In this document: piece after piece, positions 18,897 through 56,107 of the stretch | How the letters are laid out: each line of letters begins with the position of its first letter | How positions within the stretch are numbered: the first letter of the stretch is position 1 | NCBI RefSeq assembly: GCF_009939295.1 | Contig: NZ_WVIC01000030.1 | Location: 1-56,429 of the forward strand | Length of the DNA stretch: 56,429 nt | Reading direction: 5' to 3' | Source: Petrachloros mirabilis ULC683 | Lineage (GTDB): Bacteria; Cyanobacteriota; Cyanobacteriia; Thermosynechococcales; Thermosynechococcaceae | The notes under the pieces: model-generated | Databases searched by the model: none | What the model was told of the DNA's origin: nothing | What the model saw: the letters and a program-made list of their open reading frames with translations, nothing else | Made by a program: the position numbers and the translations under genes

Positions 18897-18905
18897 CCTA
18901 ATCTG

Positions 18906-19094
18906 GGAGAGGGACTTTGAATCTGGCTCCCTCCAAAAAATGTAAAAGGGGCTGGGAGATGAGGGACAACTTGAAAAACTGGGATGTAACCGGCTTTTTT
19001 ATTATCTTAATTTCTTTGTACGACTACAAAAAACTTTGTCAGCCACACAGGCCAGGAAACTACAGATTATTTTTACAATAATCTCTGAAAATAC
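18906..19094. other. Non-coding spacer with weak AT hairpin
   Basis: Follows the D1 insertion. It holds remains of an AGGGG-rich repeat tail and, at 19064-19084, arms AGATTATT and AATAATCT around five bases, ten bases after the next gene's stop on the minus strand. There is no T-run, so a terminator is only possible. With 18567-18691 and D1 this makes a 527-base stretch without a gene. Confidence 0.35.
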
Positions 19095-20258: not shown

Positions 20259-21379
20259 ACACTACTTATATTCACAGCATAATTAATAGCTTGCATTAAT
20301 CCATTAGCAAAATAGTCTGGAGAATATTTTTTAATGTGCTGCAAGGAAGCCTGTCCCATCTGATATAAATCAACCTCACCTGAACTAACTTTTTGCATAA
20401 GCATAGTTAATTGAGTTTGATTTTGAGGATCAAACCCAAATCCATTTACACCTTCGAGAACTAAATCTTCATAACAGCCACACTGATCAGATACTAAAAC
20501 AGGCAATCCAGATGCCATAGCCTCATTAACAACTAATCCCCATTGCTCACAAGTACTAGCATGAATAAAACATTTAGCATGCAAATAGTAAGGAATTAAT
20601 TCATCTAACTGAAGAAAGCCAGGCAGATGAACAAAGTTCTCTAAATTAAAATTTGAGATTTCTTTTTCTAACCATGGACGAATCTCGCCATCGCCACAAA
20701 TACAGAGATGCCATGGAGTGCCTATAAAGTTTTTGAAATAAGTGGCGTAAGAATCTATTAAAAAAGGTAAGTTCTTCTTTGATACAAATCTAGAAACAAC
20801 CAAAAAGTATGGATCACTATAAGGAGAATTATAGTCTTTTTTTTGGCATGGATTAAAGCTATCATTTCCAACTACATCATATCCCAAAAAAATAGACTCA
20901 GGCTTCATGCCAAGTTCTATTAAATAGCGCTTATGAACTTCCCCACCAACTAATGCTGAATCAAATTTACTGACAATTAATTTTTTAAATATTTCCTTGA
21001 TAAAATATCGACTTGAGTCATTTTCTTTGGTTTCAGAAAGCAAAATAGTAAATTTCTTTTTATAAAGGCTCCATAATAGAGCAATCAACATACCTCTTAA
21101 GCCATATCCACAAATAACAACTACATCAGGTTGAACACGATTTAGAGTTATAAAAATATTTTTATATAAAACGAATAGAAGTTGCTCTTCAGAAGGATTA
21201 GCAGAAAGAATATATCTTTTATATGGAACATTATTAGATTGAGGTTCCCAAGGATAGATAGTAGATATTTTTCCTAGTTCAACTAAAGTTAAATTACAAC
21301 CAGTAAAATGTTCAGAAAATCTACTGTATCTCGCAGCAGTATAGGGTCCAGAAATAGGAGTAAATGCAACAATGTTCAT
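20255..21379 (-). CDS. Glycosyltransferase family 4
   Basis: 374-residue GT-B glycosyltransferase. MNIVAFTPISGPYTAARYSR starts the N-domain; the C-domain has YFLVVSRFVSKKNLPFLIDS, ICGDGEIRPWLE and CEQWGLVVNEAMASGLPVLV (E-x7-E; written to 20 residues). Overlaps the following glycosyltransferase by four bases. Notably AT-rich. The 275 bases upstream of it (21380-21654) hold no credible gene. Confidence 0.9.
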   Translation of the reverse strand: MNIVAFTPISGPYTAARYSRFSEHFTGCNLTLVELGKISTIYPWEPQSNNVPYKRYILSANPSEEQLLFVLYKNIFITLNRVQPDVVVICGYGLRGMLIALLWSLYKKKFTILLSETKENDSSRYFIKEIFKKLIVSKFDSALVGGEVHKRYLIELGMKPESIFLGYDVVGNDSFNPCQKKDYNSPYSDPYFLVVSRFVSKKNLPFLIDSYATYFKNFIGTPWHLCICGDGEIRPWLEKEISNFNLENFVHLPGFLQLDELIPYYLHAKCFIHASTCEQWGLVVNEAMASGLPVLVSDQCGCYEDLVLEGVNGFGFDPQNQTQLTMLMQKVSSGEVDLYQMGQASLQHIKKYSPDYFANGLMQAINYAVNISSV

Positions 21380-21654
21380 TTTTATTAAAAAAATTACTCT
21401 TGGATTGCTCTAATAAGTAAAATACTTTAGACATCTGTACAGTGGCAGAGCCGAGATTTCACCTTGGTTGGCTTCAAGAAGACCTTCTACAAGCTAGGCA
21501 TTCCTTCTTGCAGTATTTTCCCTTCAAAGTGCATGGTGATGAGTAGACATAAATGTTGCTAGAGGCAATTCAAGTGAAGGCATAAGATCAAGCAGCGGTA
21601 GCAATCTGAAAGGTGGCTTATAGCTCCCTTGTTCTACCAACACTTCTTGAGAAA

Positions 21655-22953
21655 TCAGAAACCCCGGGTTTTACAGGAGGTTTCTGACTTCTCATTATCA
21701 ACTTCTACACTTTGTTGAGACATAGCATATTGAGAAACAATTTTTAGTAAGATTAATTGAAAGATAGCCTCTTGTAAAAATCGTCCAATGCCATGAGTCA
21801 AACCAATCACAGACGAACTCATTAAGCCTGGATAAAGAATTTGGCTACAAAAGCTATTTCTTTGTGTAGCAGAAATCCAAATATTTTTTAAGAAGTAAGC
21901 TATAATAGCAAAAATAAATGCACCAAGAAACCAAAATTCCTGGAAAGAATCACCAATAGCGGTTAGGGTTGTTCCAGTATGAGGAATATAGCCAAATAAA
22001 TCATCTAAGCTGTAATTAACCAAATTAATATAAAGTGAATTTTTCAGTTCTTCACCCAGAAATTGTCCAGGAATATATTGGAAAACAATATCATTCCAGA
22101 AACCCGTTCCAAATCCATATTGACCAGTAATTTCAGAAGCTTCTGCTACTAAAGTTGCATTTCTAAGTTCGAGAATAGATCCTTCTAATACTAAACTTTG
22201 AAAGGAGTTTATCAAAACAGAAAAGTTAATATCTCCTGATACTAAAGCTTCCCAAAATTGTCCACGCATTTGTCCAAAAATAGGAATCAAAAAAATTGTT
22301 AACACAATCATCAATACAACAAGAAATCGGGAAGGAAGCTTCTTCACCGCAAAAAAAATACAGATAATGATGACAATAAAAATATTTGCAGTAGCTTGAC
22401 GTCGCCCAGAGTAAACAATTGAGCTTAGTATAGGAATACTTGTAAATAATGAAAAAGATAATAGGACTGCACTTCTTCTCTCAAGTCCTTTTATCAATAA
22501 AATCGCAAGTCCCATCCAACCTGTATTGCTAAGAAATAAAATTATTGTTGCAGGGCCAGACCATGTTCCAAATTCAGAGAGTTGAACTGTGATAAGACTT
22601 AGTATTAAATTGCATATAATACTAAAAATTGATAGTGCTATACCAGCATTAATAATTTTATTTGTGTCATAATTTAAATCAAAATAACTAACAAGACGAT
22701 CATTAGATCTATGCTGATATCCCCACCAACACATAAAAGCACATAGACTTGAATAGAATAAAATTCTATTAATACTAGATATTGATGCAATCCCAGGATT
22801 GTTTACCAAGGCTATTGCTTGAGGAATTAAAAAAGTTGAAAAAATTCCTCCCATAAAAAATGGAAATTGAATAATCCTTTTCTTTTTGAGCAAACCCCAA
22901 ACAACAAGAAATAAACAACTACCAATAAACAAATCAAGAAATAAAATATTCAT
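21655..22953 (-). CDS. Wzy-like O-antigen/exopolysaccharide polymerase
   Basis: 432-residue integral membrane protein with about ten to eleven predicted helices, for example LFIGSCLFLVVWGLL, FIVIIICIFFAVK and FLVVLMIVLTIFLIPIFG, and a larger periplasmic loop around residues 220-320. It has no nucleotide or sugar-nucleotide motif. The topology, the position among glycosyltransferases and the segment SGRRQATANIF fit the oligosaccharide repeat-unit polymerases (Wzy/EpsG-type), which join lipid-linked repeat units on the periplasmic face. Wzy proteins diverge strongly, so this is a topology-and-context call. A flippase is less likely, given fewer than twelve helices and no MATE-like pattern. Very AT-rich. 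Confidence 0.7.
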   Translation of the reverse strand: MNILFLDLFIGSCLFLVVWGLLKKKRIIQFPFFMGGIFSTFLIPQAIALVNNPGIASISSINRILFYSSLCAFMCWWGYQHRSNDRLVSYFDLNYDTNKIINAGIALSIFSIICNLILSLITVQLSEFGTWSGPATIILFLSNTGWMGLAILLIKGLERRSAVLLSFSLFTSIPILSSIVYSGRRQATANIFIVIIICIFFAVKKLPSRFLVVLMIVLTIFLIPIFGQMRGQFWEALVSGDINFSVLINSFQSLVLEGSILELRNATLVAEASEITGQYGFGTGFWNDIVFQYIPGQFLGEELKNSLYINLVNYSLDDLFGYIPHTGTTLTAIGDSFQEFWFLGAFIFAIIAYFLKNIWISATQRNSFCSQILYPGLMSSSVIGLTHGIGRFLQEAIFQLILLKIVSQYAMSQQSVEVDNEKSETSCKTRGF

Positions 22954-23176
22954 TTACTTAAAGTATAAGTTTATAGCTACTTAAAAAGTGCATCTTTATC
23001 TGATTAATTATGTGATTTTTTTCAGAAAGATGCTCACCAATGAAAAAATTTTTAATGACATCAAAATGAACATATATCAACAGATAAAATCACTAAATTT
23101 TCTTACCCTATTACGTCAACTTAGCTTTAGTGCTATTCTTTTTGCCACTACTTGCAGCTTACCAATGGTAAATGGA

Positions 23177-24310
23177 TTATGAGGTGGGCTGAACAAGACA
23201 GTGTTGAAACATACTAAAGTAATGAGGTGCCAAGGTAGTCCAGCTAAATGTGTCTCGTACATATTTTCTTCGCTCATGGCTTTTTTGGGGACAGTTGCTT
23301 GGTGATTTTAAAATTTGAGAGAGCACCCGAGCTAAGGAAGTAGGCTTAGAAAAGTCTGCAAAGCAGCCGTGAGAACCCAGTACATAGCGCATGACAGGAT
23401 GATCATGGATAATGCAGGGTAAGCCATACATGAGTGCTTCGAGAAAAACTCGTCCAAAGCCTTCATTGAGTGAAGCTAAAGTGAAAATATCTGCTGTTTG
23501 ATAGTATTGACTGACTGCTTCGTAGGAAACAGTTCGAGCTGTGAAGTGATCAGTTCCCAGGAAGCGGCTAGCTTGTTCAAGAATGATCTTGCTGGCTGGG
23601 GACATTTGCCCCAACAAAACTAGGTAAGGGCGAGGGGCAGGCAGTGAGGCTATTTCTTGAATAAGATAGTCCATCCGTTTGTGGCTGTGGGGATCAATCG
23701 CTCCGACGCTTAGCACAATGGGTCGATGAATGGGCAAGTTGAGTGATCGGCGAAGAGCCTGGATGGATTGGGTGTCTGTAATCAACTCTTCATCGGAAAC
23801 TTGAATCCCATAGGGAACTAGGATATGTTTGTGAGCCGGTTCTCCTGCTTCAAGGGCTTGCTGGTAATACAGGGGGGTTACCTGGTGGACAAAATCTTTT
23901 CTAATAAAGGGTGGGTTACAGGGGCCGCCATTGGAAAATAGGAGTCGATAGGGAACCCCAATTTGGCGACGAAACCAGTACAACAAGAAACCTAGGTTAG
24001 AGTCAGAGTAGAAAATGATATGAGGTTGCAGTTGACGAATTTGCCTGACGATCGGTAAAAAAGAAGACCACTGCTCCATGACATAGCCATTGCGCCCCAC
24101 CACTTGCCCCAGTTTTTCTGTAACGAAGGAAGTGCGGGGCAAACACCAGACGGATTGTTCTTTGTTGGAGGATTGTCCTGCCCCTTTAATTAGAGTTGCC
24201 TGCACTCCTTCAAGATCCTGAAGGTTATCGAAGGCTTCTCTAAAAAAAGATTCAATACCGCGATTAACGATCCCTACTCCTGTGCAGGAGAAGAGGACAC
24301 GGATCGGCAT
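23177..24310 (-). CDS. Glycosyltransferase family 4
   Basis: GT-B glycosyltransferase. MPIRVLFSCTGVGIVNRGIE starts the N-domain and SLNEGFGRVFLEALMYGLP is the E-x7-E motif; LSVGAIDPHSHKRMDYLIQE is the donor phosphate loop. The frame is open upstream to 24688, but the 120 or so residues before this start are encoded by repeat B3 and by antisense of the neighbouring gene, so they are not native. The ATG at 24310 is chosen (377 aa); an ATG at 24325 is the alternative. GC content is higher than that of the polymerase upstream in coordinates. Confidence 0.88.
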   Translation of the reverse strand: MPIRVLFSCTGVGIVNRGIESFFREAFDNLQDLEGVQATLIKGAGQSSNKEQSVWCLPRTSFVTEKLGQVVGRNGYVMEQWSSFLPIVRQIRQLQPHIIFYSDSNLGFLLYWFRRQIGVPYRLLFSNGGPCNPPFIRKDFVHQVTPLYYQQALEAGEPAHKHILVPYGIQVSDEELITDTQSIQALRRSLNLPIHRPIVLSVGAIDPHSHKRMDYLIQEIASLPAPRPYLVLLGQMSPASKIILEQASRFLGTDHFTARTVSYEAVSQYYQTADIFTLASLNEGFGRVFLEALMYGLPCIIHDHPVMRYVLGSHGCFADFSKPTSLARVLSQILKSPSNCPQKSHERRKYVRDTFSWTTLAPHYFSMFQHCLVQPTS

Positions 24311-24332
24311 ACCGGTTTTGTCCATTTGTCTT

Positions 24333-24490
24333 GGCTTTAGAGCTTGTTTGAGAAGTTGCTTAGACCTTGCACTTGCCCCCCTAACCCCCCAAAATTGGGG
24401 GGAAATGAGCAGAGTTTTTGGCTTTCTCCCCCCATTGGAGGTCGGGGGGGCAATGCAGGGATGAATGAGGCTTTTCAGACGGCCTCTTAG
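24333..24490 (+). repeat. Repeat B, copy 3
   Basis: Nearly the same sequence as B2 at 6199-6361, from GGCTTTAGAGCTTG to GGCCTCTTAG. It fills the gap between two glycosyltransferase genes. Its right end carries TTA at 24487-24489, the stop codon (TAA on the minus strand) of the next gene. Confidence 0.85.
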
Positions 24491-25440
24491 ACCTTGAGTG
24501 AGTGTTGAAGTTGTTCTAAAGCTTCTGGTTGAATCCACTGGGGATAACAACCCTCTGTCCAACCGGGTCGTAATTTGTCCAGGACAGGTAAAAAGAGAGT
24601 GTGAACCAATTGCTGTACGACTCGTTTTGAAAGAGGTGCAAGATGGTTGGTAAACTGAAACGCTGGCAGGGAAGCTCCTGGTTGCCAATATTGTAGTTCC
24701 GGTAAATTATCAGGGGCTACAAACTGTCGCCATTCTCCCTGAAACCAATGATGTTGTTCGGGATGAGTCCAGTTCTGACGATTTTCGAGATTAGCCATCA
24801 TAATGGCGCGGAGACGGCAGCGACGATCTAGCTGTATGGGATCTCGGTGAGGGTAATGGCGAATGGGTAGCCGTTCTCGTGCCACAAATCCTGCATTAAA
24901 TGGGAAGGAAACTGTGGGAGGCCACTTCATGGTTTCCCGATAGCGACATAGGCGAGGCTCACTGTAAATACTAGGGGTAAACCAGCGACGACGTTCTTCA
25001 ATAGGCTTCATGCGATCGCCGATGGTTTCCCGCCCTGCTTCCCAGGAGACAACTTCTGATGCAGTTAGGCGAAAGTCATAGTACTGGTGATAAACAATCG
25101 TCTCGTGTTTTTGGAGGTGGGTTTGCACAAATTCCGGAGGGGGAACATGATGAAACTCATCAGCATCTACCCGCAGAAACCAGTCCCCATCTTGCATCTG
25201 CTGACGTGCAACATGGAAGAGATATCCTCGTAACCGGGTCTCAGAAAAGTAAACTGGGTCTTTTTTTAGAGGAATGACCCGTTTATCCTGTCTGGCAAAC
25301 TCGTGAACAATTTCCCAGGTGTTGTCTACGCTGCCTGTATCGAAGACGTAAATGTGATCTGCCCAACTCAAAAGGTGCTGTAGACACTGACCAATTATAT
25401 CGGCTTCATCTCGGACAGGAAGCAATGTATGAAACTTCAT
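24487..25440 (-). CDS. Glycosyltransferase family 2
   Basis: GT-A enzyme of 317 residues. HTLLPVRDEADIIGQCLQHL (4-23) and IYVFDTGSVDNTWEI make the nucleotide site; WFLRVDADEFHHVPP holds the DXD motif. The C-terminal half has HYPHRDPIQLDRRCRLRA, typical of a subgroup that adds sugars to cell-surface glycans. The last codons and stop come from the end of repeat B3. The start overlaps the upstream glycosyltransferase stop by four bases (translational coupling). Confidence 0.9.
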   Translation of the reverse strand: MKFHTLLPVRDEADIIGQCLQHLLSWADHIYVFDTGSVDNTWEIVHEFARQDKRVIPLKKDPVYFSETRLRGYLFHVARQQMQDGDWFLRVDADEFHHVPPPEFVQTHLQKHETIVYHQYYDFRLTASEVVSWEAGRETIGDRMKPIEERRRWFTPSIYSEPRLCRYRETMKWPPTVSFPFNAGFVARERLPIRHYPHRDPIQLDRRCRLRAIMMANLENRQNWTHPEQHHWFQGEWRQFVAPDNLPELQYWQPGASLPAFQFTNHLAPLSKRVVQQLVHTLFLPVLDKLRPGWTEGCYPQWIQPEALEQLQHSLKV

Positions 25441-26351
25441 AGGGAGGGGACTTCAATGATCTGTTTGACCTGTTCAGAGGTATATGCGGGTTGGCGTGCA
25501 AGCTTCATCCAGGCATAGTAGGTTTGCCAGGGAATGGGCTGGCGATCGCGCAGACATTGGGGAAGCCCCATTAACGCTGACCACCACCAGATGGGTTCCC
25601 GAATTGCCCAGCGGAACCCTTCACTGCATGCATACTGAAATTGTCTGACGATGCGAAAGATGGAAACGGGGATAACCCAGGGAAACGGGCATCGGAGCCA
25701 CACACTCCAGAGTTCGTTGCGTGCGTTTTGATGATGGCGACGAACGGGTTGACGTTGCACTGAGGAGGTGTGGTGACGAATGGTAAGGGAAGGCTCAAAC
25801 CAGACTGCAAAGCCTGAAGCGTAACATTGAAGAGCATAATCTGGTTCTTCATACATATGATGAAAGAAGGTTGGAAAGCCCTGTAATTTGAGATACAGAT
25901 CTCGCCGCATGATGGCAGCGCAGTTGGGATAGGCAGCCACGTATTGCCCGGGAGAGGAGGGAGTTTTACTGGTTGATGAGTAGACATCTCCATTGAGAAG
26001 CTCAGGAAAGGTAATCACGCCTGCTTCGGGATGCTTCGCCAGAATTTGTTGAACATGATTGAGGAAGACTGGTTCTAGGGGATAGCTATCATCATCCAGA
26101 CAGACCACAAAGTCACCTTTGGCAAGGTGCAAGATTCGGTTCCGCGTCCCCACAGAGCCAAGGGATTGTTCGTTCTCGATCAAGGTAAATGTGGGAAACT
26201 CTTCCTGAACCATTTTCACGGTACCGTCTGTACAGCCATCCGCACAAATGATCACCTCATCGGGTGGGGGGTACCAGGTTTGAATGTTCTGGCAGGTTTT
26301 ACGCAAATCATCAATGCGATTACGAGTCGCAATCATCACGGTAAACGTCAT
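25437..26351 (-). CDS. Glycosyltransferase family 2
   Basis: 304-residue GT-A glycosyltransferase. TVMIATRNRIDDLRKTC and VIICADGCTDGTVKMVQ form the nucleotide site, and DFVVCLDDDSYPLEPVF the metal-binding DXD. MRRDLYLKLQGFPTFFHHMY is the conserved acceptor-side segment, with a Glu-Glu-Pro-Asp after it. It lies four bases before (and overlapping) the next GT2 and five bases after the GT4 at 26356, so the three are surely one transcription unit. Confidence 0.92.
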   Translation of the reverse strand: MTFTVMIATRNRIDDLRKTCQNIQTWYPPPDEVIICADGCTDGTVKMVQEEFPTFTLIENEQSLGSVGTRNRILHLAKGDFVVCLDDDSYPLEPVFLNHVQQILAKHPEAGVITFPELLNGDVYSSTSKTPSSPGQYVAAYPNCAAIMRRDLYLKLQGFPTFFHHMYEEPDYALQCYASGFAVWFEPSLTIRHHTSSVQRQPVRRHHQNARNELWSVWLRCPFPWVIPVSIFRIVRQFQYACSEGFRWAIREPIWWWSALMGLPQCLRDRQPIPWQTYYAWMKLARQPAYTSEQVKQIIEVPSL

Positions 26352-26355
26352 AGCT

Positions 26356-27579
26356 TTAGCTGAGGATTTTGAGTGTGTTAATTAAGCGCTCTCCATACCG
26401 TGTCCAAGTAAAAGCCTGCGACCTTTCACGGGCGGCGATCGCCATTCTTTCTCGTTTAGATCGATCTTCAACAATCTCTGCGATCGCTCTAGAAATAGCT
26501 TCTGGGTGGCGCTCTGGTACGATATATCCTTCGATGCCATCTCGGACAACTGAACCGGAAGCTCTAGTGGTTACGACCGGAACCCCTGCCCCCAATGCTT
26601 CATAGGTGACTCCGGCTGATCCTTCTGCCAGGGAAGGCAAAACAAACACATCAGCAGTTGCAAATTCTTGGTGAATTTTGTCCCGTGGAATTCGGCCTAG
26701 AAATTTTAAGTGCTTGCAAATGTTTTTTTCTACGATGGCTGTATCCACATTACCGGCAATCCGAAACTCGTATTGATATCCAGACTTGGCAAGCTGCTCT
26801 GCTGCCATTGCTAAATAATGAATTCCTTTACGGAGGTTGGCAGTACCCACAAACAGGATTCGTCTGGGAATGGGATTGGGTTTGAGATCAAAGAAGGTAG
26901 GATTAATTCCGTAGGGCACTACAGCAGTTTGGGTGGCTTGGATGCCATAGTTCTGTACTAAGTCATCTTGTACGGCTTCAGAAGGACAGATAAACACCTG
27001 GGTTCGGGTGAGCAACACATTCTCAGGAAGCAGTTCTTGTCGAATGGCATCGTAATTTGGGGGATCAGGTTCCCAGGCTGGAAAGCTTTTTCGTTCTTCT
27101 GCCAGAATGCGTTCGGTGCTCAACAGGATATAAACGTCAGAGATTACTTTAAGCCCCTGCTGTTCTGCGGCTATTAGCAAGGGTGGAAACTCTCCTAGCA
27201 TGGAATAGAGGTGAGTGGCCTTGCCAAAGCCTGCCTGAACCATTGCATGACCCAACTCTAGAGATTTCAGACAGGATAAGCGGAATTGGGAGTTTTCATC
27301 CCGAGATGAGAGTGTGGTGCGAGTCAGCCAGCGTAAATTCGGTAAGGCAAAGGTGTAAGTTAGGGGCTGGATTTCAATTGGTACTTGGCGACCTGCTAGA
27401 CGATAAAGCCGATCGCCGATGACGGGCATTTTTTTGCCCTGTGCTAGGAGTTTGCCAAACCCAACGTTTCCACAAATATCTGTGTAGAAACGCTCTAATA
27501 GTTCTAATGTTGCCAGAGAATAGGGAACTGCATAACCATGGCGAGCACCATTTTGGGCAACAATAAAACGGCTATCCAT
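26356..27579 (-). CDS. Glycosyltransferase family 4
   Basis: 407-residue GT-B glycosyltransferase. The N-domain starts MDSRFIVAQNGARHGYAVPY and includes GKATHLYSMLGEFPPLL. The C-domain has ILFVGTANLRKGIHYLAMAA, FLGRIPRDKIHQEFATADVF and SLAEGSAGVTYEALGAGVP (E-x7-E). The N-terminus NGARHGYAVP resembles exopolysaccharide transferases acting on lipid-linked acceptors. HIP1 sites are present again in this gene (near 26431 and 26481), unlike those at 16.3-25 kb. Confidence 0.92.
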   Translation of the reverse strand: MDSRFIVAQNGARHGYAVPYSLATLELLERFYTDICGNVGFGKLLAQGKKMPVIGDRLYRLAGRQVPIEIQPLTYTFALPNLRWLTRTTLSSRDENSQFRLSCLKSLELGHAMVQAGFGKATHLYSMLGEFPPLLIAAEQQGLKVISDVYILLSTERILAEERKSFPAWEPDPPNYDAIRQELLPENVLLTRTQVFICPSEAVQDDLVQNYGIQATQTAVVPYGINPTFFDLKPNPIPRRILFVGTANLRKGIHYLAMAAEQLAKSGYQYEFRIAGNVDTAIVEKNICKHLKFLGRIPRDKIHQEFATADVFVLPSLAEGSAGVTYEALGAGVPVVTTRASGSVVRDGIEGYIVPERHPEAISRAIAEIVEDRSKRERMAIAARERSQAFTWTRYGERLINTLKILS

Positions 27580-46944: not shown

Positions 46945-48657
46945 GTGGCTCCCCCCAAAAAGCCTGCTCTGGCCAGCAGAGCTATTCAACTCTCCATTCC
47001 CTATCAACTGCATCGGGGATTTCTCTGCTTTTTGAACCTGCGATCGCTCCTAGCCTTTCTGGTGGTGCTTACCTGTGTCATCGGCGGGGATCTCTTGCTC
47101 GATGCAATTTTACAGCACACCGATCTGGAAGCGGGTCTGTTACGTACGCTCTATCCCGTCCCTAATTTCCAGGAGTTAGAGATTGATTTTGCCCCAGAAG
47201 TTTGGCTAGCGCTGGTGGGGCTGAGCCTGGGCACCTTGATTATTGTGATTTCGATTGCGGCTCAGAGCATCCCCAAAATTGTGGAGCTGTATATGCAGGA
47301 TTGGGTGAGCCTGGTTTATATCTGGTTTGTTATTTTGGGTAGTGCTCAATCTATCTATATCAAGTTCTATCGAGACACCGAGATTCTGAGGGCTTCCAGT
47401 ATTATTCTGAATCTCTATGTGTTTTTACCTGCATTTATTACCTTTTCATTTCCCTATATCTACTACGTCCTCAAGGGTATTCAGCCCACGGTCGTCATCG
47501 AAAAAATTTCCCGCCAAAACATTAAAAATATTCGACGATTGACCACCCCCTCAAATCAAGCTCTAGTCGGGATTGAGTCCTACCGTGAAGCCTATCAACT
47601 GAAGCTGCTGGAGTCGCTGAACCAGCTTGACAGTATGCTGCACTTTGTCTCCTTTAAGGAGCCTAAGGCTCAAATTATTCAGTATATTAGTCTGGCCATT
47701 CGGGAATTTATTCCATGCAAATCCCGAATGGGTACTGATTTTTTCCGGGTGGGTGATGTTATTCGTGCTGACATTTCGTTTAAGACTTTAATTGACCAGT
47801 TCCCGCTGTTGGAGCGCAACCACACCTTCTATGAGCAAAAGTGCTTTCGGATTTTAGGAAACGCCTATGTGTATCTGCTCGAAGAGTCTGAGTTTGACCT
47901 GGCATCGCTCTGTGCCTCGGAAATGAGCAAGGTGGGCCTTGCCGCCCTCTCCATCCAGGCAGAAAAGCTGCTGAATCTGATTGTGATTCGGTTTAATACC
48001 ATGCTGCGCTTTGCCCTCAAGCATGGCGTTAAAAACAACGAAGCCCGTAATCTCTACAATCTTGCCTTTCACTACCGCACCTTTATTGAAGCCCTGGTGC
48101 GCCATGGTCAGGTGGCCTCTGCCACGCAAAGTTTTTATTACCTGCGCTCCTACGGGAACGAGATTTATGCCTATGGCCGCACCAGTCCAGCCATGTATTT
48201 CATTGTGGATGTGTTTGCGGCTGAGATGAAGAAAATTTTAATTCAGGTTTACTACCAGCACTGGCCCCTCTCCACCCAACGTCACTTGCTGGAAGAGATG
48301 TTGCAGGTTGATAGCCCACCAGAAGTAGATGTTAGTGCCTCTAAACCGCGCCATCTCAATCATGGGGTGCGGGCGCTGCAAATTGGGCTGGCGTTGTTTT
48401 ATCTCAAGGTGGAGCAGCTTGAGTTTGTGGAGCGGATTATTGCCGATATTTTGGAAGATTTAGAGATTCTGGGAGAACCGGCATTTCGGCAGGCTATCGC
48501 TGGGATCTGCGATCGCATCCGCAATGCCCAGCCCACCTTTTGGGAAGACACTGATCGGGGAACCGCCAACTTGTATTACGCCCCGGAGCGCGACCAACTC
48601 AGTCGTTTTTGCAATTTACTAGAAGCGCGTCTCACCTCAGGTGGTTCCTCCGCATAA
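46945..48657 (+). CDS. Large membrane protein of unknown function (570 aa)
   Basis: Starts at GTG 46945. Four membrane helices in the N-terminal 180 residues (LLAFLVVLTCVIGGDLLLDA, VWLALVGLSLGTLIIVISIA, WVSLVYIWFVILGSAQSIY, SIILNLYVFLPAFITFSFPY), then a cytosolic all-helical region of about 390 residues with TPR/HEAT-like character (EEARNLYNLAF-type segments). The arrangement resembles DUF2254-type membrane proteins at the N-terminus, but I cannot assign it with confidence. Its stop lies 20 bases before the convergent kinase stop. Confidence 0.8.
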   Translation: MAPPKKPALASRAIQLSIPYQLHRGFLCFLNLRSLLAFLVVLTCVIGGDLLLDAILQHTDLEAGLLRTLYPVPNFQELEIDFAPEVWLALVGLSLGTLIIVISIAAQSIPKIVELYMQDWVSLVYIWFVILGSAQSIYIKFYRDTEILRASSIILNLYVFLPAFITFSFPYIYYVLKGIQPTVVIEKISRQNIKNIRRLTTPSNQALVGIESYREAYQLKLLESLNQLDSMLHFVSFKEPKAQIIQYISLAIREFIPCKSRMGTDFFRVGDVIRADISFKTLIDQFPLLERNHTFYEQKCFRILGNAYVYLLEESEFDLASLCASEMSKVGLAALSIQAEKLLNLIVIRFNTMLRFALKHGVKNNEARNLYNLAFHYRTFIEALVRHGQVASATQSFYYLRSYGNEIYAYGRTSPAMYFIVDVFAAEMKKILIQVYYQHWPLSTQRHLLEEMLQVDSPPEVDVSASKPRHLNHGVRALQIGLALFYLKVEQLEFVERIIADILEDLEILGEPAFRQAIAGICDRIRNAQPTFWEDTDRGTANLYYAPERDQLSRFCNLLEARLTSGGSSA

Positions 48658-48677: not shown

Positions 48678-50762
48678 TCAACCCACTGCAACCGAGAGCG
48701 GCGTCAAGGCTTCGGGCTGGGTCAAATTACAGTCTTGGAGTTCAACATCCCCGAACCAATCTGCTTGCAGGCGCTCAGCCGGTAGCTCGAAGTATTGCAA
48801 GCAGCCTTGGGAAGCGAGCTGGGTCGCCACTACTAAACCATAGGGGTCAACCAGTGCCACCGCCGTGATCGTTGCCTGAGCCTCCAGCGCCAGATCGTAG
48901 TGACCTCGAACCTGCCCTGTGGCATCCAGAAGCAACATCTCACCTTGGGCACTTATTAAAACGTAGCCCCAGGAGGCAGCCAACCCACGCTGGGGTCTGA
49001 TACTCAAGTCTACGCGTCGAACTCGCAGGGGTGTCAGGGTGATCAGCAGTCCTTGGGGAGAGTCACAGTCTTCCCAGGCAAAGAGAGTAGATTGGGGCTG
49101 GCGGGTGTTCTCAGAACTGGCCAGGGAACGCACCACAACCCAGTCTACCTTGGCCGCTAGAGCGGGACTGCTGCCCCAAAATCCGCGCCGATTAAACCAC
49201 TGGAGTTGGGTTTGATCTAGATCTGTCTGTGCCTTCTTGGGTGCTGCCATCAGCCCCAGTCCATAGCGTCGATCGAGCGCTAGCAGTTGGCGTGGCGACT
49301 TTTCTAGATCAAACCGCCGAAGGGGTTGGCCAGTGGGTAGGTGTAGCAATTGCACACCCCGAGAGGCCGCCCCCTCGTAAATCGCCACCCATTTCCCTGT
49401 GGGGTCAAGGGCGATGTGCTCAGGAGCAACTTCTGCTGGCAGGCGATAGAAAGGCGCAGGTAAAGCAGATCCAGGCAAATCAGAAAGTTCCGAAAGCCAG
49501 TGCAGGGCCGTTTCCACCCCCGCAGGATTTTGAGGGTCTGTCTTGCGAGTCACCACCAACAGGCCGGATGCCCCAGGCAAAATTGCGTGGAGCTGGGCAA
49601 CCGGCCAGACAGCAGCAGCTTCTCCCCCAGGAATCACCGCCCCCAAGCCATTGGCGCAGATGGATCGCCACTGCATCTGAGTTGCCGTGGTCACCAGCAG
49701 AGCCGCTCCTTGCACCACCAGATGTCGGATAGGGCTGGGCAAAAAACAGGTCGTTACGCACGGCAGGGGCGTGGGGAATCGAGACAATCTGGGCAATCTC
49801 CCATCCGGTGTAGAGATGGCGGCATCCAGGACGGCGGCTGCGAGTCGCACAGCGTCCAACATGTCAGCGGCTGAAGTGTAGCGATTTTGGGGCAGCTTTT
49901 GCAAGGCTTTGCTGATCACTGAACGGATTAAAAAGGGAATTTGGGTGGGCAGCTCAGCATTCCGATTCATATGAGCCGCCATCAGATCAGCAGGAACACC
50001 ATCAAAGGGACGATCTCCCATGATCAATTCATACAAAATCACCCCCACAGCATATAGATCTGAGGCTAGAGGGCAGCGGCCATAGAAGCGCTCTGGTGCC
50101 ATATAGGCTGGTGACCCGGTATTTCCCCCCTGTTCCAATCGCCCTTCACCATCCTGGAGCCGAGCAATCCCAAAGTCAGCAATGCGCGCGCGCCAACCCT
50201 CAGGGGTTAGGGTCAGCAAAATATTTTCCGGTTTGAGGTCACAGTGAATCACCCCAGCATCATGGGCATGGGCCAACCCTTGCAGAATGTCTTGGATCAA
50301 GCCCAGGCTCAGACGAGCATTCAGGCTTTCAGGGGTATTAATGAGATCTCTTAGGGTTCCGGCTTCGCAGTAGTCCATGACCAGGTAGCGCCCACCTGGG
50401 TTGTATTCAAGGGTGTGGAGGCTGACCACATTGGGATGCTGAAGACGCGCCAAGACATGGAGTTCTCGCAGAAACCGATGGGTAGGAAATTGGCGAGCAT
50501 CAAGCTGCTTGAGAGCCACAATTTCACCGGTGTGTCGGTGCATGGCACAAAAAACCTGGCCAAATTGCCCGGTGCCAACTCGACCTAAAATACGATATTG
50601 ACTGCGGCGCTGCATATTTAAGTCCCAAGCACTCCAAGAATCCTCCCACCCACTGGGCCAAAAGCCAGACGTTGTAGATGGAGGAGCAAAAGGGGTTTCC
50701 ACTGGGGGCAACAGAGTTTTGCTCCCAGTGGAAGTGGATGGCGGGCTAGCCCATGTGTTCAT
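48678..50762 (-). CDS. spkG: Serine/threonine protein kinase, SpkG-type (Slr0152-like)
   Basis: 694 residues. Pro/Ser/Thr-rich N-terminus (1-50), then a Hanks-type kinase domain (about 56-325): GRVGTGQFGQVF (P-loop), VALKQL (Lys), VIHCDLKPEN (catalytic loop), ADFGIARL and YMAPERF. The catalytic loop has HCD in place of HRD. The C-terminal 370 residues have no membrane helix and look like beta-strand repeats (VALDPTGKWVAIYEG, SLASSENTRQPQ), possibly a propeller. Last gene of a block in the same order as Synechocystis slr0144-slr0152, where Slr0152 is SpkG; 15 bases after the TPR gene. Context supports a role in photosystem II assembly or stress signalling. Confidence 0.9.
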   Translation of the reverse strand: MNTWASPPSTSTGSKTLLPPVETPFAPPSTTSGFWPSGWEDSWSAWDLNMQRRSQYRILGRVGTGQFGQVFCAMHRHTGEIVALKQLDARQFPTHRFLRELHVLARLQHPNVVSLHTLEYNPGGRYLVMDYCEAGTLRDLINTPESLNARLSLGLIQDILQGLAHAHDAGVIHCDLKPENILLTLTPEGWRARIADFGIARLQDGEGRLEQGGNTGSPAYMAPERFYGRCPLASDLYAVGVILYELIMGDRPFDGVPADLMAAHMNRNAELPTQIPFLIRSVISKALQKLPQNRYTSAADMLDAVRLAAAVLDAAISTPDGRLPRLSRFPTPLPCVTTCFLPSPIRHLVVQGAALLVTTATQMQWRSICANGLGAVIPGGEAAAVWPVAQLHAILPGASGLLVVTRKTDPQNPAGVETALHWLSELSDLPGSALPAPFYRLPAEVAPEHIALDPTGKWVAIYEGAASRGVQLLHLPTGQPLRRFDLEKSPRQLLALDRRYGLGLMAAPKKAQTDLDQTQLQWFNRRGFWGSSPALAAKVDWVVVRSLASSENTRQPQSTLFAWEDCDSPQGLLITLTPLRVRRVDLSIRPQRGLAASWGYVLISAQGEMLLLDATGQVRGHYDLALEAQATITAVALVDPYGLVVATQLASQGCLQYFELPAERLQADWFGDVELQDCNLTQPEALTPLSVAVG

Positions 50763-50777
50763 ATCCCTGGAAATAAT

Positions 50778-51542
50778 CTAGGCAAAGAGTTCGGCCACGG
50801 GTACCACGTCAGAGGAGTTAGCCTGTTCGGAGCCTGAGGGTTGCTCAGTGTTGAGATAATGGGTTTCGTTACAGAGATCTCGGGCTTTTTGATAGTTGTG
50901 GATGTCTCCCTGCCCCAGGTACAGCTTGGCAGCGGTGCGCAGGTATTGCACGGCAAGCTGCCGATTCCCGAGATGCAAGCGGACAACCCCCAGATGGAAG
51001 AAGGCATCGGCATGCTGCGGGTTCAGAAGGGTGGCCTGTTGGAAGTCTTCAGCAGCGGCTTCTAGGTTGCCCAGTTGTTCATGGTTGAGTCCACGATGGT
51101 AGTGAGCTTCATTGGGGTTGGCACTCTTGCGAATGGCGAGATCGGCATCCACAATTTCGCTCACTGATTTCAATTGGGTGGCTAGGTGCTGCTCTTTGGC
51201 AGTGAGCGCCTGACTGGTTTGAACCAAAGTCTGTTGTTCAGCTTCGAGGGTTTTGACCCAAGCGTTGAGGTCAGCCTGCTGCTGAGCCATGGGCTGAATC
51301 TGCTCGGCTTGCAGGGCTGCGATCACGCCTTGCTGAAGTTGCAGCATGTCGTTGAGCTGTTGCTTGCGGTTAAACCAATTGAGCGAAACGGCCAGAGAAA
51401 GAGGTACAGAGGCCAGAACGGCCTGTTGGGTGAGAAGGGCTGCGATCGCACCCCCCAGTGAGCCGACAATAGTGACAATTTCCGCTACATTCAGCCAAGA
51501 GTTTTGAGCAAGACGACTTTGAGAATCAGAGGAATTTTGCAT
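50778..51542 (-). CDS. Membrane-anchored TPR protein (Slr0151-like)
   Basis: 254 residues. An N-terminal hydrophobic hairpin (VTIVGSLGGAIAALL, LASVPLSLAVSLNWF; 24-57), a Gln-rich coiled coil (70-135) and two to three TPR units (about 145-225: AHYHRGLNHEQLGNLEAAAE, AFFHLGVVRLHLGNRQLAVQ). In Synechocystis the equivalent protein, Slr0151, affects thylakoid organisation and photosystem II repair. Assignment rests on its position before the SpkG-type kinase and domain layout. Confidence 0.85.
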   Translation of the reverse strand: MQNSSDSQSRLAQNSWLNVAEIVTIVGSLGGAIAALLTQQAVLASVPLSLAVSLNWFNRKQQLNDMLQLQQGVIAALQAEQIQPMAQQQADLNAWVKTLEAEQQTLVQTSQALTAKEQHLATQLKSVSEIVDADLAIRKSANPNEAHYHRGLNHEQLGNLEAAAEDFQQATLLNPQHADAFFHLGVVRLHLGNRQLAVQYLRTAAKLYLGQGDIHNYQKARDLCNETHYLNTEQPSGSEQANSSDVVPVAELFA

Positions 51543-51649
51543 GGGTAATGACTCTTTCGGTAAAAGAAGGGGTAGAGATTGTTGATGTTGCTTGCAATGA
51601 ACGGGACTGGCCTAGAGGGACTGGCGACCACACCCAACAACAGCAGTCG

Positions 51650-52117
51650 CTATCGGAGCACCGCGTAATTGAGCTGCAACACCGGCAACATCAGAGCAAA
51701 CTCTTCATCGCTCAGGTGTTGTTTCAGCACCTCAGGCATCACCTTGTTGACGGCTTGACAGGTTCTCGAAAATTTAAAGGCGTGAACCAGGGTACGTTGC
51801 CACAGCAGCAAGGTATTTTGCAGCCGATCGATGTCATCAACCAAGACAGCCGCAGCAGAACACCATAAATAGTGCTTGCGATCGCGCCGAGAAATTTCAG
51901 ACGTATCCTTGCCGCTATAGGTAAACGCCTCGGGGTCTGTCTCAAAAACCTTTGCTTCTACCTGTTGCATCAGGGTTTCTTCCGCCTCACGAATCGTCTC
52001 GTAGGCGCTGATGCGATCATCCACAGACTCTAAATAATCTTTAATGAATTGTAATTCTTGAGCAGTTGCGAAGCGGCCATCCGCTTCCACACTCAAGCGA
52101 GCAAGTTGTTGCAGCAT
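51650..52117 (-). CDS. Phycobiliprotein-fold protein without bilin cysteine (Slr0149-like)
   Basis: 155 residues with the phycobilisome-protein globin pattern: SVEADGRFATAQELQFIKDY at the start, QQVEAKVFETDP, and ISRRDRKHYLWC where phycobiliproteins have xCLRDxDYYLR. The bilin-binding Cys is Ser here. Other chromophore-pocket residues (Arg, Asp) are kept. It lies in the slr0149 place of the block. A bilin could bind non-covalently, or the fold may be used for protein contacts. Confidence 0.75.
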   Translation of the reverse strand: MLQQLARLSVEADGRFATAQELQFIKDYLESVDDRISAYETIREAEETLMQQVEAKVFETDPEAFTYSGKDTSEISRRDRKHYLWCSAAAVLVDDIDRLQNTLLLWQRTLVHAFKFSRTCQAVNKVMPEVLKQHLSDEEFALMLPVLQLNYAVLR

Positions 52118-52198
52118 GGGTTAAACCTCTTGGAACCTGAAAATGTACATAACAAACGTGAGACAGTATTGATTTGGATCAGACTTGGGTCTGGGAGC

Positions 52199-52681
52199 TT
52201 AAAATTCACTCTCAGCGGTGAGATACTGACTTGCTTTAACCCGAGTTTCTTCGAGCTGGGTAATCATCGAGCGAGTAATTAGCTTGCCTGCTTCCACCAG
52301 CACTGTCCCGGTAAGGGGGTGCAGAATATTTTGCTCCGCTCGTCGGCCAATGAGAGCTTCAATGTCCTGCATATCGCTGACATACATCCCCGATGGCAAT
52401 TCCACGATCACCCCTTCGTCCAGAACTCGGGCTTGACAGGCCAACCGAGAGTTGACATTACAGGTGGTAATTGCACCCAAAGTCCGTTGCTCTCGTCGGG
52501 AAAGGGGAGAGAGACTCTCCATTCCTGCTTTGATGTAGACGTGACAGGTGGCACACATCCCCCGCCCTCCACATTCCTGCAAAACTTTGAGTTCGTTTTT
52601 CAGCAACCCTGAAAGCAGGTTGTCGTTGGTTGCGATCGCAGTTTCCCGATTAATGGGAGCCAGTTTCACAGTTTTGGCCAC
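52199..52681 (-). CDS. [2Fe-2S] ferredoxin with C-terminal extension (Slr0148-like)
   Basis: 160 residues. Cluster ligands in C37-x5-C43-x2-C46 (CGGRGMCATC) and Cys near residue 82 (RLACQA): the adrenodoxin-like spacing instead of the plant-type CX4C. After the fold (residues 1-100) there is a 55-residue extension (ILHPLTGTVLVEAGKLITRS, then a helix). It is in the slr0148 place of the block. The separate ferredoxin at the slr0150 place in Synechocystis is not found here: 51543-51649 is only a short spacer. Confidence 0.88.
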   Translation of the reverse strand: MAKTVKLAPINRETAIATNDNLLSGLLKNELKVLQECGGRGMCATCHVYIKAGMESLSPLSRREQRTLGAITTCNVNSRLACQARVLDEGVIVELPSGMYVSDMQDIEALIGRRAEQNILHPLTGTVLVEAGKLITRSMITQLEETRVKASQYLTAESEF

Positions 52682-52721
52682 GGTTGATCCTCCTGAGCAT
52701 AGATGTCTTACGCGGGGACTA

Positions 52722-53393
52722 TCAGCTCAGGGGCTGACTTTGGCACAAGCGTTCCATCACCGTGACGTGATCATGGGCTTCCTCTAACCAGGCTTCCGCC
52801 ATCTTTACCCGGTCTCGCAACCCCAAAACAAAGAAATTGCAGTCATCTCCCAGGGTTTCGCAAGCCGTTTGAATACAGTGCAAATCTCGACCCGTCAACT
52901 GGCTAAAGAAAGCACTGAGCAAACCCGCTTCCGTAAAGCAACTGGGACGATTGAGATCCGGGCTAGCCTGAGCAAAAGCAGAATGCTGTAATTTGACGAC
53001 TAAAAATCCCTGAGCGCTATAGTCTAGATCGACTTCAACATCACCCCAGCCATGGGTACGCCAACATTGCTTAAAGCACTGCAAAAAGGCCGCCATTTCC
53101 ATCTGGGCAAGAGGTTGCTGATAATAGTCACTGACTTCAGCCTGAAATCGACGGTAGAAGCTTTTACCCCACCAGTAGCCACATTGAAAAAGCACCATCC
53201 CCGCCGATGGCCCCACTTCTTCTGCTAGTCCGGCATATAGCGCTTGCAATAGTGTATCGGGCATCGCCAAAAGCCGCGCCCCAACTCGGTTCTCAATCAG
53301 TCCAGATTCATAGTCGCCCTGAACATAGGCATCAGGGGCAAAGTAGTTGCCGGGCAAATAGGGCGCAGCCAGTAACTCTGACACATTAATCAT
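52722..53393 (-). CDS. V4R-domain protein (Slr0147-like)
   Basis: 223 residues from the ATG at 53393 (MINVSELLAAPYLPGNYFAP), with GGAG eight bases upstream; a TTG at 53411 is less likely. The V4R (4-vinyl reductase-like) small-molecule-binding fold covers residues 60-215: GMVLFQCGYWWGKSFYRRFQ, AFLQCFKQCWRTHGWGDVEV, LSAFFSQLTGRDLHCIQTAC and GDDCNFFVLGLRDRV. V4R domains bind tetrapyrrole-like or other hydrophobic ligands. Slr0147 position in the block. Confidence 0.88.
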   Translation of the reverse strand: MINVSELLAAPYLPGNYFAPDAYVQGDYESGLIENRVGARLLAMPDTLLQALYAGLAEEVGPSAGMVLFQCGYWWGKSFYRRFQAEVSDYYQQPLAQMEMAAFLQCFKQCWRTHGWGDVEVDLDYSAQGFLVVKLQHSAFAQASPDLNRPSCFTEAGLLSAFFSQLTGRDLHCIQTACETLGDDCNFFVLGLRDRVKMAEAWLEEAHDHVTVMERLCQSQPLS

Positions 53394-53424
53394 AATTATT
53401 CTCCGGTTCAAGAAAATAGAATCC

Positions 53425-53925
53425 CTAAGCCCGCACTTCTTCCAGGGTTCCTAAGTCGGCAACCTCAGGGTGAAGTAGGGTTGTCCGAGCCTGGTCAAGA
53501 TAGGGGCGCACCAAATCGATTTGCTCTGGGCTAAGGCGATTTACCAGCAGCGTCAACAACAAGTTCGAGGCTGTGGTCTCGACGGCACCCATTTGATGCA
53601 CCTGCACAATATCCGTGAGCCATTCCAGCAGCCGTCTTTGCAGAAACTGGGGTTGATTTAGCAGCATCGCCATGGCGCTGTAGCGAAAGGCCAAAATCCA
53701 GTGCTGCAAGACCTGGGTCAGATGAGCTGGGGAAGCATCCGCACAAGCACTCTGGAGCTGCAAAGCTAGTGCCTCAAATAAGTCAGATTCCAGTTCGCGC
53801 AGCTTTTCGTAGAGGGCAAGGCGCTGCTGTAATTCAGTGGCCACACCTCGAAAGGTTTGCAGATCACTTGGAGTCAGGTAATGATTTTCTGCTTGGTACA
53901 GCAGGGCTTCAAGATCGGTATACAT
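53425..53925 (-). CDS. Phycobiliprotein-like helical protein (Slr0146-like)
   Basis: 166 residues from the ATG at 53925 (MYTDLEALLYQAENHYLTPS); a TTG at 53937 is upstream. All-helical, with YLTPSDLQTFRGVATELQQ resembling the phycobiliprotein N-terminal helices, and TQVLQHWILAFRYSAMAML in place of the chromophore helix. Only weak likeness, with no bilin Cys in the expected place. Position and partner genes fit Slr0146. Confidence 0.75.
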   Translation of the reverse strand: MYTDLEALLYQAENHYLTPSDLQTFRGVATELQQRLALYEKLRELESDLFEALALQLQSACADASPAHLTQVLQHWILAFRYSAMAMLLNQPQFLQRRLLEWLTDIVQVHQMGAVETTASNLLLTLLVNRLSPEQIDLVRPYLDQARTTLLHPEVADLGTLEEVRA

Positions 53926-53946
53926 AGGGCATCTCAAGGATAAAGA

Positions 53947-54285
53947 TTAAAACAAGTCAGATAAGTTCTCCAGGGTGATGCTGGCATCTGCTGGTGGTTT
54001 GGCTTTTAGTGCCACTGGCCTCGCAATTTGGGGCACCCCTTGCCAAGGAAGGCTGGCAAAGAAAAACTGAACAGAATCAGCTAACCCTAAGGGTTGCTGG
54101 CGCACCTGAGGCTGAAGGCGTCGCCCTTGCCAGCCCATGCTGGCAAAAAAGACTTCAACGGTTTGACTCAAGGCCAGATCTGGTGCAACATCCAAAGGCA
54201 GCAAGTCAGGCAAAGGTTGTCGGGTCCAAGTCATTTGGCTAAAGAATGCCTCGACGGTTTGGCCAGACCAAGGGACAGTGCTCAT
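53947..54285 (-). CDS. Small protein with three FFxSxxW repeats (Slr0145-like)
   Basis: 112 residues made of three copies of one motif: QTVEAFFSQMTWTRQPL (about 10-26), QTVEVFFASMGWQGRRLQ (41-58) and DSVQFFFASLPWQGVPQ (69-85). Spacing is 28-31 residues. No other fold is seen. The ATG overlaps the stop of the V4R gene upstream (ATGA). It lies in the slr0145 place. The repeats look like short linear binding motifs for a partner in the same block. Confidence 0.82.
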   Translation of the reverse strand: MSTVPWSGQTVEAFFSQMTWTRQPLPDLLPLDVAPDLALSQTVEVFFASMGWQGRRLQPQVRQQPLGLADSVQFFFASLPWQGVPQIARPVALKAKPPADASITLENLSDLF

Positions 54286-55001
54286 TGCAGGTACTCCCCA
54301 TTCACGAGGCGTTTTTCGATGTCCCGAGCCGTTGCCCCCTCGTTATGCCAAAACGTTGCAGCATCAATGCGATCGCGCTTACCCAGCAAGAACTTGCAAT
54401 AGGTTTCGCCCATGGCATAGCACTGGATTTCAATGCAGCTCAGCTCCTTTTTCACCAGGCTGGTGAAGAACCCCGCAAACAAACCTGCATAAATGTGGCA
54501 GACGGGTTTACCGACATTCCCCAGGGTGCGAGCCACCGCTGAATCAAAAATATTGACGAACATGAACCCATTCTTTTGATCGCTCATGTCCACTTCCCAG
54601 TTGCCCCAGCCCTGGGCAATAAAAGGCCACCACCAGGCTTCCAAAACATAGGCTGGATTGCTCTCGTGAATGGAATACTCGTATTCCTTCTCAAACCAAT
54701 TTTCAAAAAATTTAAAGTCTCGATTGCCCCAAGCCTTGCCAATGTTATACATAACAATGGATGAAGCACTCCCCACTTCCGACTCTAATCCCTCGATCAA
54801 GCCAACAATAAAGTCTTCGCTTGCGAGGGTAATGCGCGAATCGTTCCAGTCACTAATCTGACCGCTGTGAGCATGGAATTGAAAAAAGTCTTCAAAGCTG
54901 TAATGCTGATGTCGTTTCGGATATTTTTGCTTTAAGTTATGAATTAGTTTTTCTGGGGACTTCACCGAAGCATCTTGAGACGGTGTTTTGGCAAATACCA
55001 T
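54282..55001 (-). CDS. V4R-domain protein (Slr0144-like)
   Basis: 239 residues. Charged N-terminus of 75 residues, then V4R domain: VMYNIGKAWGNRDFKFFENW, AWWWPFIAQGWGNWEVDMSD, HIYAGLFAGFFTSLVKKELS and CIEIQCYAMGETYCKFLLGK. Cys and aromatic residues may form a tetrapyrrole pocket. Translationally coupled to the small repeat protein (four-base overlap). First gene of the slr0144-slr0152-like set; 233 bases upstream hold no gene but could hold a second promoter. Confidence 0.88.
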   Translation of the reverse strand: MVFAKTPSQDASVKSPEKLIHNLKQKYPKRHQHYSFEDFFQFHAHSGQISDWNDSRITLASEDFIVGLIEGLESEVGSASSIVMYNIGKAWGNRDFKFFENWFEKEYEYSIHESNPAYVLEAWWWPFIAQGWGNWEVDMSDQKNGFMFVNIFDSAVARTLGNVGKPVCHIYAGLFAGFFTSLVKKELSCIEIQCYAMGETYCKFLLGKRDRIDAATFWHNEGATARDIEKRLVNGEYLQ

Positions 55002-55234
55002 GGGAGTTCACCTGTTTTAATACAAGAGAATAGAGCCAGAGAAGTGATCCCCTTAAGCCCATACTTCAAGATTTCCCAGACCCATTTTATGATCGAACAA
55101 AAAACAGGTTAACTTAATCAAAATAAATATTTTTTGGATTTTAAAAATCGCAAAAAAATCTTCTTGATCAATAAATCTAATCAAGTTAAATATCTGGCCA
55201 CAAAATCTTTAGCCAGACGCAAAAAATCGACTAT

Positions 55235-56107
55235 TTACAGATTGAACAGACTTTCATCCTCAGAAGAAGAGAGATCTTCTGTACTCAAAGTGCGAATCGA
55301 AAGTGCTTTGCGCTGCCGAACATCCATACCAGAATTTTCAATGCGAGACGGCAAATCATGGACAATATGCGAGCATTGCTTCATAAAGTTACGAGTCCAC
55401 TCGCGGATACAGAGATGCTGCACCGCACTCACCGCCATTTTTTCATCTCCCATAAAGGTGAGATGGGTCGTTTCTGACACCTCAAACTGCCGCAGCCAGC
55501 CATAGTCTGGCCTGGAACTGAGCCAGAAATTGACGGTCAACTTGGGGCCAAGAAACTCACATACCGTCTCGCTGAGACGATTTAGGGCAAGATTGACCTC
55601 GGCAAAGGTTAAGTTTGGCTCTGGAAGCTCTGGACTGGCAATCTGTAGCTTAGTAAGGCTGGCGTCTGCGGCATTGGCGTTGATTTTCGTCCGCTCGGTT
55701 TGCTGCCGCTGGAGCGCTCTAAAGTCAGATTTGGTGGCTTCAAGATTTTGTTGCAGCGATTTTTGCAATCGCCGCCCCACGATCGATTTGATGATCAAAT
55801 TGTTATTCTCGGTGATGGCGCAGACGCACAGATCATCACTCAAGGGATAGAGATAGGCATAGTTATTGCCAACCAATACTTCCAGCGCATCAAAAGAACT
55901 GGGCAGATCCGTTAAGGCTTTTTGGGTAACATGCAGTAATTTTTGCTGATCAGCGGTTTTATAGTTTTGCGGACTGACCACCAGCGAGTGAATACGATGT
56001 TGCTTTACAAGCGCCACCCCCAAAACCTTAGGCAAATTCAAAAAAGCGGATACCAACTCAGCCGCCGACATTGTATTTAGTTTGTCAACCTTTAGAGTTT
56101 TCACCAT
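55235..56107 (-). CDS. Roadblock/LC7-like protein upstream of the PAP block
   Basis: 290 residues. The first 110 residues have the alternating pattern of a Roadblock/LC7 or profilin-like fold: LNLPKVLGVALVKQHRIHSL, ALEVLVGNNYAYLYPLSDDL and LCVCAITENNNLIIKSIVGR. The middle (120-165) is charged and helical, and the second half, FLGPKLTVNFWLSSRPDYGW, looks alpha/beta without a known motif. It is on the same strand as, and 233 bases before, the V4R gene. I cannot name its family; homologues may be part of PAP blocks in other filamentous species. Confidence 0.7.
   Translation of the reverse strand: MVKTLKVDKLNTMSAAELVSAFLNLPKVLGVALVKQHRIHSLVVSPQNYKTADQQKLLHVTQKALTDLPSSFDALEVLVGNNYAYLYPLSDDLCVCAITENNNLIIKSIVGRRLQKSLQQNLEATKSDFRALQRQQTERTKINANAADASLTKLQIASPELPEPNLTFAEVNLALNRLSETVCEFLGPKLTVNFWLSSRPDYGWLRQFEVSETTHLTFMGDEKMAVSAVQHLCIREWTRNFMKQCSHIVHDLPSRIENSGMDVRQRKALSIRTLSTEDLSSSEDESLFNL

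Follow-up and report, generated by a model that had tools for sequence, protein, structure and literature searches.

A roadblock-like gene in front of a fed4-less PAP operon in Petrachloros mirabilis: a candidate partner of the operon

Gene content of the locus

The PAP operon (slr0144-slr0152 in Synechocystis) has been linked to photosystem assembly since 2008, and we know of no established mechanism for this link. Here we describe its counterpart in Petrachloros mirabilis ULC683, located on a stretch of 56,429 nucleotides (contig NZ_WVIC01000030.1, positions 1 to 56,429; referred to as the window), together with RBL, the roadblock-like gene that stands directly in front of it. Effects of slr0144-slr0152 on photosystem II (PSII) assembly and repair have been shown in Synechocystis only (PMC4853703, PMC9145668). 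Nine open reading frames (ORFs), from RBL to a kinase gene, lie co-directionally on the minus strand of the window. The gene-by-gene comparison took as its reference locus L101, the operon of Synechocystis salina, which is closely related to PCC 6803, and the identities below refer to it; likely starts were chosen by comparison with homologues.

55235-56107, minus: RBL, roadblock-like, 290 aa; start perhaps at 56071
55002-55234, minus: gap between RBL and V4R_A, 233 bp, the sole large gap of the block
54282-55001, minus: V4R_A, slr0144 counterpart; Pfam V4R; 67%
53947-54285, minus: slr0145 counterpart, motif-repeat protein of 112 aa; 29%
53425-53937, minus: PBP_A, slr0146 counterpart, phycobiliprotein fold; 48%; likely ATG at 53925
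52722-53411, minus: V4R_B, slr0147 counterpart; 53%; likely ATG at 53393
52199-52681, minus: FDX, slr0148/Fed5 counterpart, adrenodoxin-type 2Fe-2S ferredoxin; 73%
51650-52117, minus: PBP_B, slr0149 counterpart (cyanobacterial BBAG); 40%
50778-51542, minus: TPR protein, slr0151 counterpart; 31%; slr0150 would sit just before it
48678-50762, minus: Ser/Thr kinase, slr0152/SpkG counterpart, 694 aa; 40%

The original prediction held that the gene order follows slr0144-slr0152, and this was confirmed: each of the eight operon genes had its best match in its positional counterpart (29-73% identity), with no best match to any other gene of the S. salina operon. Pfam matches were obtained to V4R (1e-22 and 1e-14), Phycobilisome (2e-6 and 6e-16), Fer2, TPR and Pkinase. 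V4R_A and V4R_B are the only V4R genes in the whole genome, and an SpkG query scored 383 bits for the window kinase versus 84 for the next kinase in the genome. FDX fits the description of an adrenodoxin-type Fed5, with a C-terminal extension and four cluster cysteines (37, 43, 46 and 82; C-x5-C-x2-C...C) that were invariant in 12 sequences of 54-77% identity. From V4R_A to the kinase the genes overlap or are separated by short gaps (-4 to 107 bp). Judged by sequence comparison, the minus-strand block 55001-48678 is the PAP operon, slr0150 excepted. Eight of the nine Synechocystis genes are thus alike in order and identity, whereas the window lacks slr0150 and carries RBL directly in front.

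A predicted roadblock fold and an unannotated C-terminal domain in RBL

RBL consists of a roadblock/LC7-fold domain (residues ~12-127), a linker, an unannotated C-terminal domain (CTD; ~165-258, ~95 residues) and a short tail. RBL gave no Pfam or NCBIfam match above cut-off, for which the models may be too weak at its ~10% identity to known roadblock proteins, and searches of Pfam, NCBIfam and PHROGs assigned neither RBL nor the CTD to a family. An AlphaFold2 model of RBL built from 33 relatives had a mean predicted local distance difference test score (pLDDT) of 83.6. In this model, residues 12-127 matched MglC (7ct3; Z 10.8) and MglB (3t1r; Z 10.2) over ~109 residues (VIA-align), and the N-terminus is accordingly predicted to carry the alpha-beta-beta-alpha-beta-beta-beta-alpha roadblock/LC7 fold. 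The label roadblock-like, although invisible to Pfam, therefore holds by predicted fold. RBL resembles MglB/MglC-type proteins in the predicted fold of this region but shares only ~10-12% identity with them and has the CTD in addition. No gene for an MglA-like partner GTPase was seen adjoining RBL; a genome-wide search for one was not made. Upstream of RBL the contig continues for only 322 bp, which bounds the view in that direction.

Modelled alone (114 aa, 55283-55624, minus strand), the CTD was predicted to be compact and mostly helical (pLDDT 93.4). It had no sequence match in PDB and no Foldseek match to PDB below E 2.0; VIA comparison with H-NOX gave Z values up to 4.9, within the chance range for helical domains. 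The window genome holds a single CTD copy, that of RBL. In a poorly resolved CTD tree, whose support was too low to order domain swaps, the window protein grouped with two relatives of the same family (99/99).

Linkage of the CTD to the operon's ferredoxin across cyanobacteria

We scored CTD and Fed5 in 116 genomes drawn evenly from the class. CTD and Fed5 were both present in 69 genomes and both absent from 39; seven had Fed5 only, and one had only a broken CTD. Three families in which both are otherwise present each include a single genome with neither (G001, G068 and G078). At 53 of 89 Fed5 copies a CTD gene was found less than 1.5 kb upstream on the same strand, and RBL-type genes occur directly upstream of the slr0148/Fed5 ferredoxin in other cyanobacteria.

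The position of the CTD gene was recorded at 80 named loci, which are the nearest relatives of Fed5 and not a random sample. It lay upstream of FDX at 43 loci, upstream of V4R_A on the same strand at five and divergent to V4R_A at five; at the other 27, no CTD gene was found within the examined locus DNA. At L160 it follows the TPR-kinase pair. When eight genomes with a Synechocystis-like operon and no adjacent CTD gene were tested, seven had a CTD gene elsewhere.

The neighbourhood survey thus shows that the roadblock-like gene has conserved linkage to slr0144-slr0152-type blocks in other genomes. The original prediction had described it as added to the operon; we would rather call it a partner, in one of its versions, that is found with the operon across the cyanobacteria. 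A 2023 study of the cluster's evolution found no evidence for conservation of adjacent genes (PMC10151467), in contrast to the CTD gene in 69 of the 76 genomes with Fed5 here. Our literature search found no paper on roadblock proteins beside a slr0144-slr0152-type operon.

Other genes were also seen at these loci. Three Planktothrix/Oscillatoria-type loci without a CTD gene (L110, L123 and L125) have a gene of ~101 aa directly before the ferredoxin, and in two of them (L123 and L125) a pentapeptide protein that lacks the CTD is encoded between PBP_B and V4R_B. A caspase-like gene ('ACIAIGINQYQ...', named by eye) is divergent to V4R_A at L069, L083, L123 and L167.

Domain exchange, a second operon and Sll0414

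The CTD is not always joined to a roadblock domain. With a profile built from roadblock-type proteins, the CTD was also found in pentapeptide-repeat proteins that have no roadblock domain and precede V4R_A at L054, L065, L080 and L093, and further carriers were 'MTRYYIRRLL' proteins and one protein with an EAL-like C-terminus (L018; EAL named by eye). At L149 (4549-6567), the CTD forms the C-terminus of a Wzy-type O-antigen polymerase in an apparent polysaccharide gene cluster.

A second, paralogous operon with the order CTD-FDX'-V4R-basic protein-globin-V4R was found at L150-L155, in one genus (g33) and in G112. Its CTD protein has a degenerate receiver-like (pseudo-receiver) N-terminus. At L150 and L151, a homologous receiver-like domain is also present at the N-terminus of the ferredoxin encoded next to the CTD protein (32% and 28% identity; E 6e-21 and 8e-14, respectively). 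Of all observations, this domain added to both neighbours hints most strongly that CTD protein and ferredoxin assemble together. The place of slr0145 is taken in this operon by a small, highly basic protein (~120-200 aa).

In three genomes of the window's family, RBL is followed by a gene of ~100 aa and by hybrid histidine kinase and response-regulator genes. At L033, from the same family, RBL, the small gene, two histidine-kinase/response-regulator genes and the PAP operon follow one another on one strand. The small gene of this cassette had no match in the window genome, in a search run without positive control.

The single CTD protein of S. salina is a pentapeptide-repeat protein whose gene adjoins those for an ABC ATPase and groEL, away from the operon. 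By gene order, this would be the sll0414 locus of PCC 6803. The latter is listed among motility genes (PMC7076178) and appears in a redox-proteomics table (PMC13214033).

Absence of slr0150

In S. salina, a plant-type ferredoxin of 103 aa is encoded between the slr0149-like and the slr0151-like gene, and the window has no such gene at this position. With all other operon genes matched, slr0150 (fed4) is indeed the sole gap, as had been predicted. Among 26 named loci with the slr0144-slr0152 order, slr0150 was present in 14, clearly lacking in 10 and unscorable in two. An operon around fed5 with the kinase and without fed4, for example in Thermosynechococcus elongatus, has been published as "cluster e''" (PMC4284462). 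It agrees with the window in both respects; a roadblock/CTD gene, however, is not described there, and the 'ho' of that scheme is not defined in the text.

A search of the genome's ferredoxins found no separate slr0150 orthologue. The protein closest to Slr0150 (56%) is 80% identical to a different S. salina ferredoxin and is thus Fed1/PetF-like rather than an slr0150 orthologue. The suggestion that the missing ferredoxin function had been fused or replaced was rejected on these grounds: since the fed4-less form is published and slr0150 is lacking from 10 of 24 scorable loci, no replacement is required. We conclude that the slr0150-less operon is an ordinary form that needs no special explanation.

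Does the operon handle a bilin or another tetrapyrrole?

The V4R and phycobiliprotein-fold genes had been read as signs of a tetrapyrrole or bilin ligand. Published work speaks for this reading, as the cluster descends from bilin-reductase clusters and relatives of the slr0149 globin bind bilins (PMC10151467). The operon resembles the pre-PcyA and cyanobacterial BBAG clusters of that study in its Fe-S protein, two V4R proteins and phycobiliprotein-fold globin, but differs from them in that no bilin-reductase or haem-oxygenase ORF was recognised in it by Pfam. The CXRD motif of PBP_B reads SRRD in the window, with the attachment cysteine replaced by serine and the aspartate kept, and PBP_A has no such motif. 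Among 46 slr0149-like homologues, the cysteine was present in 19 and replaced by Trp, Ser or Phe in 27, while the aspartate was kept in 45. A covalently bound bilin on the window PBP_B is not supported by this sequence and does not look likely. A non-covalent tetrapyrrole ligand is possible.

Discussion

Our findings document the gene identities of the operon, the predicted roadblock fold of RBL, and the linkage, co-occurrence, co-duplication and domain swapping of the CTD. Because the CTD tracks the operon across cyanobacteria, RBL is a good candidate for a missing PAP component. With slightly more belief than doubt, we interpret the locus as a fed4-less PAP operon whose front gene is a functional partner, combining a dimerising roadblock module with a CTD that docks on the PAP complex; in terms of mechanism, which we infer from the observed linkage, RBL is most likely a dimerising adaptor. 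Within the PAP complex, the likeliest docking site of the CTD would be the ferredoxin or whatever the ferredoxin reduces. Dimerisation, localisation or gating of the protein would fall to its N-terminal module, which is a roadblock domain in the window and pentapeptide repeats, a pseudo-receiver or another module in other genomes. The V4R and globin proteins may hold a hydrophobic or tetrapyrrole-type ligand, the ferredoxin would supply electrons, and the TPR protein and kinase would connect the complex to PSII assembly and repair.

Several points weigh against this interpretation. The association of CTD and Fed5 in the 116 genomes (Fisher p 1.7e-22) was not corrected for relatedness. In Synechocystis and several relatives, the operon and the CTD gene are at separate places in the genome, and Planktothrix/Oscillatoria-type genomes have the operon and no detectable CTD. 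The 233-bp gap between RBL and V4R_A contains a weak sigma-70-like site (55112-55084), in a region with fewer such sites than expected by chance; because of the gap and this promoter-like site, co-transcription of RBL with the operon is unproven. Its occurrence on a Wzy-type polymerase means that the CTD is not exclusive to the PAP operon, and the motility listing of sll0414 may point to another role.

That listing fits a different explanation, in which the CTD protein is not a structural part of PSII assembly but serves in signalling, informing two-component, cyclic di-GMP and motility systems of the state of the PAP module. The kinase/response-regulator cassette of the three same-family genomes, which runs into the operon at L033, speaks for such a protein, as do the pseudo-receiver modules, the EAL-like C-terminus at L018 and an EAL gene beside the CTD gene at L151. 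Most CTD genes, however, immediately precede the ferredoxin gene and have no kinase or EAL gene beside them, and the search without positive control found no counterpart of the cassette's small gene in the window genome; we consider a signalling role unlikely. Still less likely is that RBL and FDX are neighbours by ancestry, in an ancient arrangement that chance and drift have preserved without shared function. Related filamentous lineages contribute many of the loci, and the CTD gene is unlinked in Synechocystis, as a passive neighbour might be; but such a neighbour would not be expected to stand at different junctions, to be lost and duplicated jointly or to share N-terminal domains, which makes this explanation improbable. 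The block could also be a unit for handling bilins or tetrapyrroles, with RBL as a regulatory accessory and indirect effects on PSII. Its published ancestry (PMC10151467) and the aspartate kept in 45 of 46 slr0149-like proteins agree with this, whereas the attachment cysteine is absent from the window and 27 of 46 homologues and no bilin-reductase or haem-oxygenase ORF was recognised in the operon; we regard this account as doubtful.

The PAP operon and its slr0150-less form were known; what is new is the front gene, whose CTD tracks the operon. With it the operon gains a conserved partner that has a predicted dimerising module and is usually encoded beside the ferredoxin or else elsewhere in the genome. 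This provides a concrete handle on the PAP operon, in the model organism a single gene at the sll0414 locus. In the 2023 evolutionary study, no conserved partner of the cluster had been recognised (PMC10151467). We tentatively extend the adaptor interpretation, in a form that may well prove wrong: the CTD could be a docking domain, unnamed so far, through which swappable modules for dimerisation, scaffolding or sensing (roadblock, pentapeptide, pseudo-receiver, EAL) attach to the complex of PAP ferredoxin, V4R proteins and globins. Sll0414 and its counterparts would then be an overlooked scaffold for handling tetrapyrroles or redox reactions at PSII, and the paralogous operon in one genus would be a specialised duplicate of the entire machinery.

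Repeat and tail motifs and other features of the window

The slr0145-like protein of the window has three V-x2-FF-x3-W-x-G type motif copies and a conserved C-terminal LSDLF. In slr0145-like proteins (window and L033-L126), there were mostly two to three and up to five such copies and a near-invariant C-terminal '[DN][LF]S[DG][LM]F'; neighbouring ORFs, 351,224 aa in total, contained no strict form of the repeat motif. From their sequence, the repeats look like multivalent binding motifs. An 'LF' tail was found in 41 of 44 slr0145-like and 17 of 25 slr0151-like proteins (the latter counted as [LIM]F within the last six residues, L045-L113), compared with 4.7% of other ORFs, which suggests a tail common to both protein types. 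In RBL this tail is shared too weakly to be of use.

Convergent with the kinase gene, a 570-aa ORF without Pfam match occupies 46945-48657 on the plus strand. The region 16000-26400 is AT-rich (GC content 0.34-0.39 at 16-24 kb) and its ORFs, which resemble glycosyltransferases or code for membrane proteins, probably make up a polysaccharide cluster.

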